A stretch of 36,761 nucleotides of DNA from Acidimicrobiia bacterium (GTDB lineage Bacteria; Actinomycetota; Acidimicrobiia; Spongiisociales; UBA4744): assembly GCA_024763085.1 (NCBI GenBank), contig JANTGE010000005.1, forward strand, positions 1 to 36,761, read 5' to 3'. Shown one piece after another: positions 12,421 through 30,661 of this stretch (position 1 is the stretch's first letter; each line of letters opens with the position of its first letter). Made by a program: the position numbers and the translations under genes. The notes beneath the pieces are model-generated. The model was not told where the DNA came from. It worked only from the letters and a program-made list of their open reading frames with translations, and did not search any database.

Positions 12421-12443
12421 GGGGGCCACGATAGATCGTTCTC

Positions 12444-12586
12444 GAGTCTTGGGTCTCGGGTCACGGGTGTCGGGTCTCGGGCAAGAGCGCGGAGCGGCTG
12501 GGAACCGAGGACCCAAAACTCAAGACTCAAAACCCAAAACTCAAGACTCAAAACTCAAAACTCTGAGCCCAGAACTCAAGACCCAA
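12444..12586. repeat. heptanucleotide tandem array A, two oppositely oriented halves
   Basis: Left half GAGTCTT GGGTCTC GGGTCAC GGGTGTC GGGTCTC (12444-12478). Right half GACCCAA AACTCAA GACTCAA AACCCAA AACTCAA GACTCAA AACTCAA AACTCTG AGCCCAG AACTCAA GACCCAA (12510-12586). Confidence 0.9.
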
Positions 12587-12633
12587 AGGAGTCCCCGCTC
12601 GCTGCTCGGTCACGCCTGGTTACCATCCTCGCC

Positions 12634-14456: not shown

Positions 14457-15593
14457 ATGGCGATACCACATCCCAGTTTCACCGTCGGGATCGAAGAGGA
14501 GTACATGCTCGTCGATCTCGAGACGAGAGCGCTCGTCCCAGACCCGCCTGAGGAGATGATGGCCGAGTGCCAGGCCTTGCTCGAGGGCCAGGTGGGGCCC
14601 GAGTTCCTCAGGTCCCAGATTGAGATCGGCACTCGGGTGGCGTCGACGGTGGCCGAAGCCCGCGAAGATCTGGCTCGGCTGCGAAGTGTCGTCGCCACCG
14701 TCGCGAAGGCCCATGGCATGGCGCCGATCGCCGCGTCGACCCATCCGTTCACCCACTGGGGCGACACGCTCATCACCGACAAGGAACGCTACCAACTGAT
14801 CGCGAGGGAGCTCGAAGCCGTCATCCGACGTTTCGTCATCTCCGGGATGCACATCCACGTCGGGATCGACGACGACGACCTGCGCATCGATCTGATGGGA
14901 CAGTTCACCTACTTCCTGCCTCACCTGCTGGCGCTGAGCACCTCGTCGCCGTTCTGGCATGGGAACCACACCGGCCTGCGCAGCTACCGGCCGGCCGTGT
15001 TCAAGGCGCTACCCCGGACAGGCCTGCCGGAGCACTTCTCGAGCTGGGGCGAATACCGCCGCCATGTGGGGGTCCTCGTAGACGCCGGCATCATCGAAGA
15101 TGCGACCAAGCTGTGGTGGGATCTTCGGCCCAGCGAGCGCTATCCGACCCTCGAGATTCGGGCGATGGACCTCTGTACCCGGCTGGACGACGCGATCGCC
15201 ATCGCGGCGCTGTCCGTGTCGCTGCTCCATCTGCTCTACCGCCGGCGAACCCAGAACCAGCGGTGGCGGACGTATGCCAACATGCTGATCTCCGAGAACA
15301 TGTGGCGGGCCCAGAGGTACGGCATCAACGAGTCGCTCATGGACTTCGGACGAGGGGAACTGGTGCCGTTCGCCGACCTGCTCGACGAGATCATCGAGTT
15401 GGTACGGCACGACGCGGAAGAGCTGGGCTGCTGGACGGAGGTGCAGTCCGCCAGGGAGATCCTCGTACGCGGGACGAGCGCAGACCGGCAAGTGGCGGTG
15501 TATCACGCGGCGCTCGCCGACGGTGCCGACGAGCGCGAAGCACTCCAGGCCGTGGTCGACTTCCTGGTCCGGGAGACGGTGACCGGGCTCTGA
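14457..15593 (+). CDS. YbdK-type carboxylate-amine ligase (GCS2 family)
   Basis: FTVGIEEEYMLVDLETRAL; AASTHPFTHW; GMHIHVGI; LEIRAMD; SD-like CCGGAGG upstream. Confidence 0.93.
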   Translation: MAIPHPSFTVGIEEEYMLVDLETRALVPDPPEEMMAECQALLEGQVGPEFLRSQIEIGTRVASTVAEAREDLARLRSVVATVAKAHGMAPIAASTHPFTHWGDTLITDKERYQLIARELEAVIRRFVISGMHIHVGIDDDDLRIDLMGQFTYFLPHLLALSTSSPFWHGNHTGLRSYRPAVFKALPRTGLPEHFSSWGEYRRHVGVLVDAGIIEDATKLWWDLRPSERYPTLEIRAMDLCTRLDDAIAIAALSVSLLHLLYRRRTQNQRWRTYANMLISENMWRAQRYGINESLMDFGRGELVPFADLLDEIIELVRHDAEELGCWTEVQSAREILVRGTSADRQVAVYHAALADGADEREALQAVVDFLVRETVTGL

Positions 15594-15668
15594 GTTTTGA
15601 GTCTTGAGTTTTGAGTCATGGGTTGCGCGCTCTCGCTCCTACCCATAACTCACAACTCCAAACTGCCG
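15591..15668. repeat. heptanucleotide tandem array B, two oppositely oriented halves
   Basis: TGAGTTT TGAGTCT TGAGTTT TGAGTCA TGGGTTG, 15-nt spacer, ACCCATA ACTCACA ACTCCAA ACTGCCG; starts on the TGA stop codon of the upstream gene. Confidence 0.85.
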
Positions 15669-15692
15669 GCTGTCCGTAAGCGGCAGCCGGCA
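15664..15692. terminator. strong hairpin between convergent genes
   Basis: TGCCGGCTG-t-CCG taag CGG-CAGCCGGCA: 12 bp with one bulge and a 4-nt loop. Confidence 0.7.
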
Positions 15693-15697
15693 CCGGA

Positions 15698-17968
15698 TCA
15701 ATGGTCCTTCGTCTGCGCGTCCAGCACCGCAATCGCGGTCAGGTTCACGATGTCGCCCACCTCGGCGTCACGCTGCAGCACATGCACCGACCGGGAGAAT
15801 CCAGTGAGAATCGGGCCGATGACCTGGGCACCGGCGATCCTCCAAAGGATCTGATAGGCGGCGTTGCCCGCCGCCAGGTTCGGGAACACCAGCACGTTGG
15901 CAGGTCCCCCCAGGCGGTTGAATCCATGGAGTCGCTGCAGCAGATCCTCGTCGACCGAGGTTCGGGCGTGCATCTCGCCGTCGAGGGGCAGGTCTGGCCG
16001 ACGCTTCCAGGCGATCTCGACGGCTTCCCTGACCCGTTCGGGTTCCTCTCCCGACGCCGAACCGAAGTTGCTGTAAGACAGCAGCGCAACCCGAGGCTGC
16101 ACATCGAACATGTCGTGGGCCAGGTCCGCGGTCGAGATGGCGATCTCGGCCAGCTGGTCGGCTTCCGGCAGGATGTTGACCGCACAGTCTGCGAAGAAGT
16201 ACGGCCGGCCCTGCACGATCACCACATACACCGCCGACACGATCGAACGGTCCTTTTCCAACGGCAGCACCTGAAGCGCCGGACGGATCGTCGTCGGATA
16301 CGAGGTGGTCAGTCCGCCAAGGACGGCGTCGGCGTCGCCCTGCTGAAGCATCATCGCCGCATACAGGTCCGGGTCGAGGATGGCTCGGCGAGCATCGGTT
16401 GGTGTGACACCCTTTCGGCCCCGCAACTCGAAGTAGACGTCCGCGTACCGTTGACAGGTTTCCGGCTCCTCATGCGGGTCGAAGATCTGCACTCCGTCGA
16501 GTTCGATGTCGTGGGAGTCGGCAAGGGCCATGATCTTTTCTGGGTTGCCGAGGAGGATCGGTTCGGCGATCCGTTCGTCGATCACTCTCCTGGCCGCCCG
16601 GATGATGCGCACGTCGGCCCCGTGCGGGTAGACCACCCGCATCGGACGCTCTTGTGCCTTTGTCGTCACCGTGTGGGTGAGCCCGTAGGTGGCCTGGAAC
16701 CGTGCCTGCAACTGCTCTCGATAAGCATCCACACTCTCGAACGGTTTGCGGGCGAGCCCTTCGTCGACCGCCGCCTTGGCGACCGCCGGCGCTACGTGCC
16801 ACAGCACCCTCGGGTCGAACGGCTTCGGAATGATGTAGTCGGGGCCGAAGCTCAGATGGTCCAGGTTGTACGCTTTCAGCACGGCGTCCGGTACCGGCTC
16901 CCGCGCCAGGTCGGCGAGCGCGTGGGCGGCAGCGACCTTCATCTGCTCGCTGATGCTCTTGGCGCGCACATCGAGCGCACCCCGGAAGATGAACGGGAAG
17001 CCAAGGACGTTGTTGACTTGGTTCGGGTAGTCGGAGCGGCCGGTTGCCACGATCGCATCGGGTCGTGCCTCCCTGGCAACTTCGTAGCGAATCTCCGGAT
17101 CCGGATTGGCGAGTGCGAAAATGATCGGCCGATCCGCCATTGAGCGAACCATTTCGGGAGTTACCACATCGGCGACGGAGACCCCGACGAAACAGTCGGC
17201 ACCTTCGAGCGCCTCTGCCAAGGTCCGTTTGTCCGTGGGACGGGCGAACTCGGCCTTGTGGCCGGTCATGCCTTCGGTGCGTCCCTCATAGATGACGCCT
17301 CGTGAATCGCACATCAGGATGTTCTCGGGGCGTACCCCGAGACGAATGAAGAACCGGGCACAGGCGATGCCTGCCGCTCCGGCGCCGTTGAACACCACTT
17401 TGGTGTCTTCGATGGTGCGGTCGGTCAGGTCGATCGCGTTGAGGAATCCGGCGCCGGCAATGATCGCCGTGCCGTGTTGATCATCGTGGAACACCGGGAT
17501 GTCGAGGCGTTCCTTGAGGGTGTCTTCGATGAGGAAACACTCGGGAGCTTTGATGTCTTCGAGGTTGATGCCCCCGACGGTCGGGGAGAGCAGCTCACAG
17601 AAGCGGATGATCTCCTGAGGGTCTTCCGAGTCGACTTCGATGTCGAATACGTCGATGTCGGCGAACCTTTTGAACAGAACCCCTTTGCCCTCCATGACCG
17701 GTTTGCCGGCCAGGGCACCGATGTTGCCCAGGCCCAGCACTGCGGTTCCGTTGCTGACCACCGCGACCAGATTGCCCTTTGCGGTGTACCGAAATACCTC
17801 CTCGGGGTTTGCGGCGATCTCGAGACAGGGTTCGGCGACACCGGGCGTGTAGGCGAGTCCCAGATCCGATTGGGTCGCTGTCGGTTTCGTCGGCCGGACT
17901 TCGATCTTGCCGGGGCGGCCCTTGGAGTGGTACTCGAGGGCCTCGCTGAAATGCTTACCTTCCGCCAT
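15698..17968 (-). CDS. maeB: NADP-dependent malic enzyme fused to phosphotransacetylase-like domain
   Basis: [52 protein letters not shown]-terminal PTA-like half ending in the [28 protein letters not shown] region. ATG 17968 preceded by GAGGAGG. Confidence 0.93.
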
Positions 17969-18055
17969 GACGGCCTCCTCTTGCCACTCGAAGACTACCG
18001 TCATCGATCGGGCCCTCCGCCGCCGCAGCGGCAGGAGGCGGAATAGGGTAGGAGC

Positions 18056-18673
18056 GTGCACGAACCCGATGCCACCCTTGCACTCTGGGACTACCGGCGC
18101 AAAGTCGCCGACACATACGCAGCCGTGCGCGCGGCAGGTGGTGGCATCGATGCGTGGGAACGCTGGAGGGCGTTCCGTGACGACCTGTTTCGTACCCACT
18201 CCCAATCGCCGCTTTCCCGCGCGCGCAGAGCCGGCTTCGAGGGCGTGCCGTACTTCTCCTACGACCCGATGTGGCGCCTGGAGGTCGAAGTGGTCCCGTT
18301 GGAGGATGAACAGGAGTCCCTGGCTCACAGTGGCGCAGGAGCCACCACTTTCCGCCGGTTCGGCCGTGTCGACATCCCGGCGGCGGGCGTCGTGTCCACG
18401 CTGACGCTCTACTGGCTCGAGGGCTACGGAGGAGGCGTGTTCCTTCCTTTCCGGGACGACACCAACGGTGAGTCCACCTACGGCGGTGGCCGCTATCTGC
18501 TCGACACGGCCAAAGGCGCCGACCTCGGTCATCGGGGCCGCCGACTGGTGCTCGACTTCAACTTCGCCTTCCACCCGTCATGCGTCCACGACGACCGCTG
18601 GTCGTGTCCGCTGCCGCCGCCGGGCAACCGGATCAACGGCTTGGTGGAGGCCGGGGAACGGTTGAGACGCTGA
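18056..18673 (+). CDS. DUF1684 family protein
   Basis: [22 protein letters not shown]...[28 protein letters not shown] typical of DUF1684. Confidence 0.9.
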
Positions 18674-18705: not shown

Positions 18706-18830
18706 GAACCCAGAACCCAGAACCCGAACCTAGAACCCAAAACTCAAGACTCAGAACTCAGAACTCAGAACTCAGAACTCAGAACTCAGAACTCAAGACT
18801 CAAGACTCAAGACTCAAGACTCAAAACCCT
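18706..18830 (+). repeat. heptanucleotide tandem array C
   Basis: GAACCCA x2, GAACCC, GAACCTA, GAACCCA, AAACTCA, AGACTCA, (GAACTCA)x6, (AGACTCA)x4, AAACCCT; single orientation. Confidence 0.95.
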
Positions 18831-18872
18831 TCACCCGTGGACCGGCGTCTCGGAGACTTCTAGGCTCCGACC

Positions 18873-20036
18873 ATGACCACCATCACCTTTCCGGAAGGGT
18901 TCCGTTGGGGAACCGCTACCGCCGCGCACCAGGTCGAAGGAGGCAACGTCAACAACGACTGGTGGGCGTGGGAGCATGCCGAGGGCACACCCTGCGTGGA
19001 GCCGTCGGGAGATGCCTGCGACCACTATCACCGGTTCCGTGACGACCTTCGCCTGCTCGGCGACCTCGGGTTCGACACCTACCGCTTCTCTGTGGAGTGG
19101 AGCCGCATCGAACCGGCACGGGGCGAGTCTTCGCTCGCCGCGCTGCGGCACTATCGGGCCATGGCGGCGGCATGCCGTGAAGCAGGCCTCGAACCGGTCG
19201 TGACGCTTCACCACTTCACCAGTCCCCGTTGGCTCGAGGGTGGATGGACGGCCCAGGCAACCGCGGCACGCTTCGCCCGGTACGTCGAGTTTGTCGTAGA
19301 CGGACTCGAAGGCCTTGTCGACATCTACTGCACAATCAACGAGCCGAACATCGTCGCCACCATGGGCTACCTCACCGGCTTGTTTCCGCCAGGCCATCAG
19401 GATCCGGCCGAACGGCTGGCAGCCAACGATGTGCTCATCGAAGCCCATCGGGGCGCGGTCGAAGCGATTCGCCGGCTGGCCCCTCAGGCGAAGGTAGGGC
19501 TGACCCTGGCCATGTCCGAATGGACGGCGGTGGACGGGGGCGAAGCCACCCTCGAGATGCTGCGCGAACCGATGGAGGATGTCTTTCTGGAGGCAGCCCG
19601 TGACGGCGACTTCATCGGGGTGCAGACGTACTCGCGGCACCGCGTCGGTCCAGGCGGGTACCTGGGGCCCGAGCCGGGTGCAGAGCTCACCATGATGGGG
19701 TACGAATACCGGCCGGAGGCACTCGAGGCGACGATCCGGCGGGCTGCTGCCGTGACCGGTCTGCCGGTGTGGGTGACCGAGAACGGCATCGCCACCGCCG
19801 ACGACCGCCGCCGCATCGATTTCGTCACCGAAGCGCTCCGAGGGGTCCACGACTGCCTGACCGACGGTATCGACGTTGTGGGGTACACCTACTGGTCGGC
19901 GCTCGACAACTTCGAGTGGGCGCTCGGATACGCGCCCACCTTCGGGCTGATTGCCGTTGACCGAGACACCCAGCTCCGTACGGTCAAACCGTCAGCGCAC
20001 TGGCTGGGTTCGGTGGCGAGAGCCAACGCCCTCTGA
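18873..20036 (+). CDS. glycoside hydrolase family 1 (beta-glucosidase-like)
   Basis: FRWGTATAAHQVEGG; YRFSVEWSRIEP; acid/base CTINEPN; nucleophile VTENGIAT. Confidence 0.93.
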   Translation: MTTITFPEGFRWGTATAAHQVEGGNVNNDWWAWEHAEGTPCVEPSGDACDHYHRFRDDLRLLGDLGFDTYRFSVEWSRIEPARGESSLAALRHYRAMAAACREAGLEPVVTLHHFTSPRWLEGGWTAQATAARFARYVEFVVDGLEGLVDIYCTINEPNIVATMGYLTGLFPPGHQDPAERLAANDVLIEAHRGAVEAIRRLAPQAKVGLTLAMSEWTAVDGGEATLEMLREPMEDVFLEAARDGDFIGVQTYSRHRVGPGGYLGPEPGAELTMMGYEYRPEALEATIRRAAAVTGLPVWVTENGIATADDRRRIDFVTEALRGVHDCLTDGIDVVGYTYWSALDNFEWALGYAPTFGLIAVDRDTQLRTVKPSAHWLGSVARANAL

Positions 20037-20074: not shown

Positions 20075-21739
20075 ATGAACGCATACACCCTCTCCGACCA
20101 GCTCCTCGACGAGCTGCTCGCACTCTCGCCGATCAGCTGCACGTACCTGGGTGTTCCCGGCAAGGACCATGAGTGGGACGACCTGTCCTGCGCCGGTGTC
20201 GCCCGTCGGCGGGGCGTCTTCGAACGGTATCGCGAAGCCTTCGCCGCACTTCCGGAGCCGGAGGAGCGGTGGGAGCGGCTCGCCTACCGGGTGGCCGACG
20301 CGATGATCGATGAAGAACTGGACCGCTACGCCCACCTCGAACACCTCCGGGACCTCAACAGCATCGCTTCGACCTTCCAGAACCTTCGAGAAGTGTTCGA
20401 CCTCGCCGACCTGGAGACCGACGACGGGTGGGACAACGCCATCACCAGATTGGAGACGATCGACCGTCCGCTGAGTGGCTATCGAGAGTGTCTCGACGAG
20501 GGGCGGGAGAGAGGCGTCGTGGTCGCCAAGCGCCAGGTGAGGGCCGTGGTCGTGGAGGCGCTGACCACGGCGGGTGACGACGGGTTCTTCCGGCAGCTGC
20601 CCGCTCGCCTGGAGGCGACTCCGGCGGCCACCCCGGAGCGGATGGCGCGTTTGCGGGCCGCGGTCGACCATGCCTGCGCTGCGTATGTCGAGTTCGCCGA
20701 GTATCTCGAGGAGAGCTACCTGCCGGACGCCACCGACGTCGACGCCGTCGGCGAACAGCGCTACATTCGGGCGGCCCGGCGATTCCTCGGAGACGTCATC
20801 AGCCCCGTCGAGACTTACCACTGGGGCTGGGAACAGGTGAAGCGACTCCGCGGACTCATGATCGAGACCGCCTCCCAGATAGACCCCGAGAAGTCGCTGG
20901 ATGCGGTGATTGGGCTGCTCAAGTCCGACCCCGAACGGTCGGCCCGATCGAGGGAGGCGTTCGTCGAGTTCATGAAGGCACGGCTGGCCAAGGCGGTCGG
21001 GGATCTCGACGGCACCATCTTCGAGATTCCGGAGCCGATCAAGCGGGTCGACGTGAAGCTGGCACCTCCGGGCGGCTCGCTGGGTGCCTACTACCTGCAG
21101 CCGTCTGAGGACTTCTCGAGGCCGGGAAGTGTCTGGTGGTCGGTCGGCGACCAGCAAGTCTTCCCGCTCTGGGACGAGGTGAGCACCGTCTACCACGAGG
21201 GCTTTCCTGGCCACCATCTCCAGGTCGGGATCCAGGTGGCGCTCTCCGACCGACTGAGTCGCCTCCACCGGCTCCTCATCTGGTACCCGGGGTACGGCGA
21301 AGGGTGGGCGCTCTACGCCGAGCTGCTCATGAACGAACTCGGCTATCTGGAGCTGCCCGAGTATCAGCTCGGGATGTTGGCCGCCCACATGTTGCGGGCC
21401 TGCCGGGTCGCCATCGACATCGGTTCGCACCTCGATCTCCCGATCCCCGACGACTCCGGGTTCCACCCGGGGGAACAGTGGACGTTCGAGACTGCGGTCG
21501 AGCTGCTGACCGACTATGCATTTCTCGAGCAGGCCTACGCCGAGTCCGAGGTGACCCGCTACCTTGGCTGGCCCGGGCAGGCCATCTCCTACAAGGTGGG
21601 CGAGCGGGTCATCCTCGAGCTTAGGGAGACGCTCAGGGAGCGCCGCGGCCCTGCGTTCACGCTCCGCGACTTCCACGAGCGGGTACTCGGCTCGGGTCCC
21701 GTCGGGTTGGCGCTGCTTCGGGAACTCGTGCTCGGCTAG
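20075..21739 (+). CDS. DUF885 family (putative metallopeptidase-like) protein
   Basis: VYHEGFPGHHLQVG, YGEGWALYAELLMNELG, PGQAISYKVGE typical of DUF885. Confidence 0.92.
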   Translation: MNAYTLSDQLLDELLALSPISCTYLGVPGKDHEWDDLSCAGVARRRGVFERYREAFAALPEPEERWERLAYRVADAMIDEELDRYAHLEHLRDLNSIASTFQNLREVFDLADLETDDGWDNAITRLETIDRPLSGYRECLDEGRERGVVVAKRQVRAVVVEALTTAGDDGFFRQLPARLEATPAATPERMARLRAAVDHACAAYVEFAEYLEESYLPDATDVDAVGEQRYIRAARRFLGDVISPVETYHWGWEQVKRLRGLMIETASQIDPEKSLDAVIGLLKSDPERSARSREAFVEFMKARLAKAVGDLDGTIFEIPEPIKRVDVKLAPPGGSLGAYYLQPSEDFSRPGSVWWSVGDQQVFPLWDEVSTVYHEGFPGHHLQVGIQVALSDRLSRLHRLLIWYPGYGEGWALYAELLMNELGYLELPEYQLGMLAAHMLRACRVAIDIGSHLDLPIPDDSGFHPGEQWTFETAVELLTDYAFLEQAYAESEVTRYLGWPGQAISYKVGERVILELRETLRERRGPAFTLRDFHERVLGSGPVGLALLRELVLG

Positions 21740-30570: not shown

Positions 30571-30661
30571 GGGTCTCGGGCTTTGAGTTCCGAGTTTTGG
30601 GTTTTGGGTTTTGGGATTAGGACCGGGGATCAGGTACCAGGTACCGGGTACCAGGTACCGT
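30571..30661. repeat. heptanucleotide tandem array D with change of unit
   Basis: GGGTCTC GGGCTTT GAGTTCC GAGTTTT GGGTTTT GGGTTTT GGGATTA GGACCGG GGATCAG GTACCAG GTACCGG GTACCAG GTACCGT: 13 units in unbroken 7-nt register, ending at the stop codon of the next gene. Confidence 0.88.

Follow-up and report, generated by a model that had tools for sequence, protein, structure and literature searches.

A tandem array of heptamers stands directly upstream of a GH1 gene in an Acidimicrobiia bacterium, within the stretch of 36,761 nucleotides analysed here as a whole (the window; contig JANTGE010000005.1). The locus raises the question of whether such an array sets the activity of the neighbouring promoter or is a product of mutation that is tolerated where it lies. 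The array spans positions 18706 to 18827 of the forward strand and is composed of 17 units of the class RRACYCA, equivalent to CYCRRRA. TRF detects it in the window with a period of 7 and 17.6 copies. Read from 18706, the units are GAACCCA, GAACCCA, a 6-nt GAACCC, GAACCTA, GAACCCA, AAACTCA and AGACTCA, followed by (GAACTCA)6, (AGACTCA)4 and a terminal AAAC. TRF and the reading of the sequence both agree with the initial annotation, which had described about 17 heptamers with one 6-nt slip around a (GAACTCA)6(AGACTCA)4 core. The array had also been called the longest of its kind, which holds within the window; an array on contig C10 of the same genome equals it with 17 units.

The length of this tandem 7-nt repeat is beyond chance. 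Its lag-7 identity of 0.88 is the top value of all 122-nt stretches in the window, whose first 12,000 positions reach a maximum of 0.39. A run of at least six identical units accompanied by a second run of at least four was found in none of 200,000 random draws from the unit pool of the same genome. The units are contiguous, with an identity of only 0.15 at lag 11 against 0.88 at lag 7, which rejects a SARP binding site, where the heptamers are separated by 4 or 15 nt (PMC8780764).

The GH1 gene (18873 to 20036, forward strand) codes for a beta-glucosidase-like protein of 387 amino acids (PF00232, E 7e-80; TIGR03356 below cut-off). Genes were called with a purpose-written codon-usage caller whose start codons are approximate. 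A DUF1684 gene (18056 to 18673, forward strand; PF07920, E 1e-38) precedes the array. Two further neighbours of GH1 are conserved in synteny, a maeB-like malic enzyme/phosphotransacetylase gene (15698 to 18004, reverse strand; PF01515, PF00390 and PF03949) and, downstream of GH1, a DUF885 gene (20075 to 21739, forward strand; PF05960, E 4e-133). The hexamer TAGGCT at 18861 to 18866 (forward strand), 6 nt before the GH1 ATG, is the predicted -10 element of a leaderless transcript. Among 187 genes with an upstream gap of at least 50 nt, 27 have the motif TANNNT 6 nt before the start, 15 have it at 7 nt and 10 at 8 nt, and it is rare at adjacent distances. The four other genomes of the same family each have a GH1 gene at 66-72% identity, and all four carry TANNNT 6-7 nt before its ATG. 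The leaderless -10 proposed for GH1 is thus well supported as a sequence-based prediction, by the genome-wide peak and by its retention in the relatives. A consensus scan found no sigma-70-type promoter at the GH1 locus, including upstream of the array, nor was an intrinsic terminator found there; no known RNA family was found in the window.

The same four genomes bear on the origin of the array. The order maeB-GH1-DUF885 is kept in all of them, with DUF1684 in between in one, and none has an array upstream of GH1 (the intergenic sequence of G004 includes a stretch of N). The simplest reading is therefore that this lineage gained the array, and since the relatives keep the -10 without it, the promoter core exists independently of the array. 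Its placement directly upstream of GH1 was correctly annotated; the interval to the -10, given as 30 nt, is about 34 nt when measured from the array end at 18826/18827 to TAGGCT, and 46 nt separate the array from the GH1 start.

These distances weigh on the proposal that copy number tunes the GH1 promoter, in the manner of the heptamer number at hmw1A of Haemophilus influenzae. There, too, 7-bp tandem repeats lie upstream of a gene, and a higher number of repeats lowers hmw1A expression (PMC8262952). The hmw repeats are positioned between the predicted promoters P2 and P1 of a single contingency locus with a shown effect on expression, whereas for the array studied here the sigma-70 consensus scan found no second promoter upstream; it stands upstream of the -35/-10 core and belongs to a genome-wide family. 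Together with the orthologous GH1 promoters, which retain their -10 and lack the array, and with the placement of the sister arrays described below, this speaks against the proposed tuning and makes it very unlikely that array copy number sets GH1 expression.

Related arrays are found throughout the genome (G000 hereafter). Two occupy the gap between the divergent htrA-like and tauE genes of the window, one of CCCGAGA type at 12440 to 12481 on the reverse strand and, on the opposite strand, one with CTCAAGA, CTCAAAA and CCCAAAA units organized in a 21-nt super-unit at 12498 to 12588. A CCCAAAA array (30574 to 30615, reverse strand) lies upstream of a kup-like potassium transporter gene, and the same gap contains a TRF array of a different unit, CAGGTAC (30631 to 30659). 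A further sister array (15581 to 15629, reverse strand) overlaps the GCS2 stop codon in a convergent gap; with an inverted partner it forms a hairpin between the convergent genes (15581 to 15680, z = -2.7), possibly a bidirectional terminator. A pattern search in the 1.94-Mb assembly returned 89 overlapping matches to CYCRRRA triples. A 405-kb sample of G000, made up of stretches around array sites and control stretches, contains 39-40 non-redundant arrays of at least three units, none within a gene.

The intergenic location extends to heptamers of other sequence. All 61 period-7 TRF arrays of the sampled stretches are intergenic, whereas arrays with periods of 9, 12, 15 and 18 are mostly coding. 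The period-7 units besides CYCRRRA include ACCAGGT, AGCAGCC and ACCGAGT, so that the sequence varies more than the period does. Over the three genomes with large expansions of the family (G000, G024 and G098; see below) none of 85 arrays lies inside a gene. In G098, period-8 arrays accompany those of period 7 in stretches L210-L216 (nine arrays, eight of them intergenic), compared to one in the much larger G000 sample. Several arrays are also found near the ends of G000 contigs C72, C82, C109, C182 and C195, and the array sequence at the end of C109 recurs at the start of C182; arrays therefore probably interrupt the assembly and are probably undercounted.

The position of the arrays relative to genes follows a different pattern from that expected of promoter elements. 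Arrays are in excess between convergent genes, where promoters are not to be expected, when G000, G024 and G098 are taken together (odds ratio 3.1, Fisher p = 4e-4), and in G000 the excess persists among gaps that have 20 nt or more beyond the array itself (odds ratio 4.9, p = 0.001). Distances from array to start codon in G000 range from 3 to 622 nt. In codirectional gaps of the three genomes pooled, 17 arrays are in sense and 13 in antisense orientation. The arrays near starts in G000 are mostly in one orientation, which speaks for a promoter tuner. The C-rich strand of G000 arrays tends weakly to be sense near starts (p = 0.03) and antisense near stops (p = 0.001). The tendency near starts is reversed in G024 and is overall not significant. 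Different tests for a rule linking array strand to gene direction were suggestive in G000 (p = 0.001 to 0.10), but the rule did not hold consistently once G024 and G098 were added. The convergent excess, the scatter of distances and the lack of a consistent strand rule across genomes make a common promoter role unlikely.

Alternatively, a sequence-specific regulator or a nucleoid protein could bind the arrays, with the CYCRRRA consensus under selection. In favour of such a role, about 40 loci share one unit class, which occurs in both orientations, and the inner units are close to the consensus. It is nevertheless highly improbable, given that other heptamers also build arrays in G000, that most relatives in the family and order have none, that the favoured unit differs in each expanded genome and that arrays vary freely in their number of units and in their distance to genes.

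The distribution among relatives is sporadic. Any CYCRRRA triple is present in 16 of the 138 genomes of the order and large expansions in three, each with its own favoured unit: G000, G024 (CCCAAGA) and G098 (CTCGAGA/CTCGGGA). Scans at the phylum and class levels revealed no further large expansion, the biggest number being 17 overlapping matches in G200 (three places among the matches listed). The 21-mer GAACTCAGAACTCAGAACTCA is found, among the matches listed, in Cyanobacteria, Bacteroidota, Planctomycetota, Acidobacteriota and others. Comparison of the three genomes separates what is constant, period 7 and the intergenic location, from what varies, namely unit sequence, strand and spacing to genes; this favours a mutational rather than a regulatory origin.

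The internal organization of the arrays indicates how they grow. Local amplification by slippage or unequal exchange, put forward from the runs of identical units, gains support from those homogeneous runs, from an identity of neighbouring units above that of shuffles and from super-units. With all units counted, lag-1 and lag-2 unit identity exceeds both global and within-array shuffles in G000, G024 and G098; with exact consensus units only, the lag-1 identity is not significant in G098. The inner units of G000 arrays fit the consensus better than the edge units (6.7 against 6.1 of 7 positions), and TRF and unit reading identify super-units of 14 and 21 nt. From the excess of unit identity, the better-fitting inner units and the super-units we infer that arrays grow by one to three units at a time.

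The reading preferred here, held with a probability of about 0.8, is that the array is a heptanucleotide long simple sequence repeat (LSSR) that expanded through slippage or unequal exchange and is tolerated because it is non-coding, next to a GH1 promoter that is independent of it. The array would have arisen in this lineage and would have grown in steps of 7, 14 and 21 nt through replication slippage, unequal exchange or both. It would persist in non-coding DNA, where a length change of 7 nt is nearly harmless, whereas within a gene it would cause a frameshift. GH1 would most likely be transcribed from a leaderless -10 promoter without help from the array. Slippage at each locus alone accounts neither for the unit class common to some 40 loci nor for the period of 7, and the weak strand-position tendency of G000 also tells against this reading.

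The array matches the heptanucleotide LSSRs known from the work of Mrazek, Rehm and MacGregor. Those of Mrazek et al. 2007, as summarised in two later papers (PMC4679880, PMC4692102), are sporadic across genomes including Actinobacteria, and polymerase slippage was proposed for them. The arrays described here share with them the 7-nt unit, a length above chance and the sporadic distribution, while the unit class CYCRRRA and the host lineage are not named in those summaries. The repeats GGGAATC/GGGGAYT of Xanthomonas and Nostoc (Rehm et al. 2015, PMC4692102) likewise form many dispersed intergenic arrays of degenerate units on both strands. The likeness extends in part to a strand-position tendency in G000, where the G-rich strand tends to be the non-coding one close to starts and the coding one close to stops; as noted, the former is reversed in G024, and no strand rule is consistent across the three genomes. 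The Xanthomonas and Nostoc heptamers favour aligned genes, whereas the arrays of the present family favour convergent gaps. The TAACTGA repeats of Beggiatoaceae, Cyanobacteria and Bacteroidetes (MacGregor 2015, PMC4679880) are also dispersed in intergenic DNA and scattered phylogenetically. In Beggiatoaceae most of them share one orientation and lie only several nt from a start codon, unlike the arrays of G000; the GH1 array has another unit and ends 46 nt from the start, and many of its sisters are in convergent gaps. The present genome, with its dense CYCRRRA heptamer family, adds one to the few described; its GC content, leaderless promoters and NucS are in keeping with the Actinomycetota.

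Formation of a structure such as a G-quadruplex or hairpin was proposed for the GGGNATC heptamers of Xanthomonas and Nostoc, and some sister arrays in G000, which read (GGGTTTT)n on one strand, are compatible with it, as is the hairpin of the convergent 15581 array with its inverted partner. Neither strand of the GH1 array core contains a GGG tract (the G-rich one reads TGAGTTC/TGAGTCT), so that four consecutive units with GGG are not found and this array does not qualify as G-quadruplex-forming, in contrast to the Xanthomonas and Nostoc heptamers. As single-stranded DNA it folds to 0 kcal/mol, with no hairpin or other single-strand structure predicted. That it acts as a structural element is extremely improbable.

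Since homeologous recombination in M. smegmatis rises when the mismatch-repair protein NucS is inactivated (PMC5290159), the order was searched for this protein (PF01939). A match is missing in 14 of the 138 genomes, including G024 and G098, whose sister species do have NucS. A hypergeometric calculation made by hand puts the chance that at least two of the three expanded genomes are among these 14 at about 0.03, a figure that ignores kinship and assembly completeness. G000 has a full-length NucS reading frame of 219 amino acids on contig C98 (L178:6096-6755); NucS loss is therefore not required, and was rejected as the necessary cause for this genome. It is unlikely that the heptamer bursts reflect a change in DNA maintenance, for example a loss of NucS that would relax recombination between imperfect repeats and convert short scattered heptamers into a homogenised genome-wide family. 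The NucS gene of G000 is itself located about 500 nt from a heptamer array.
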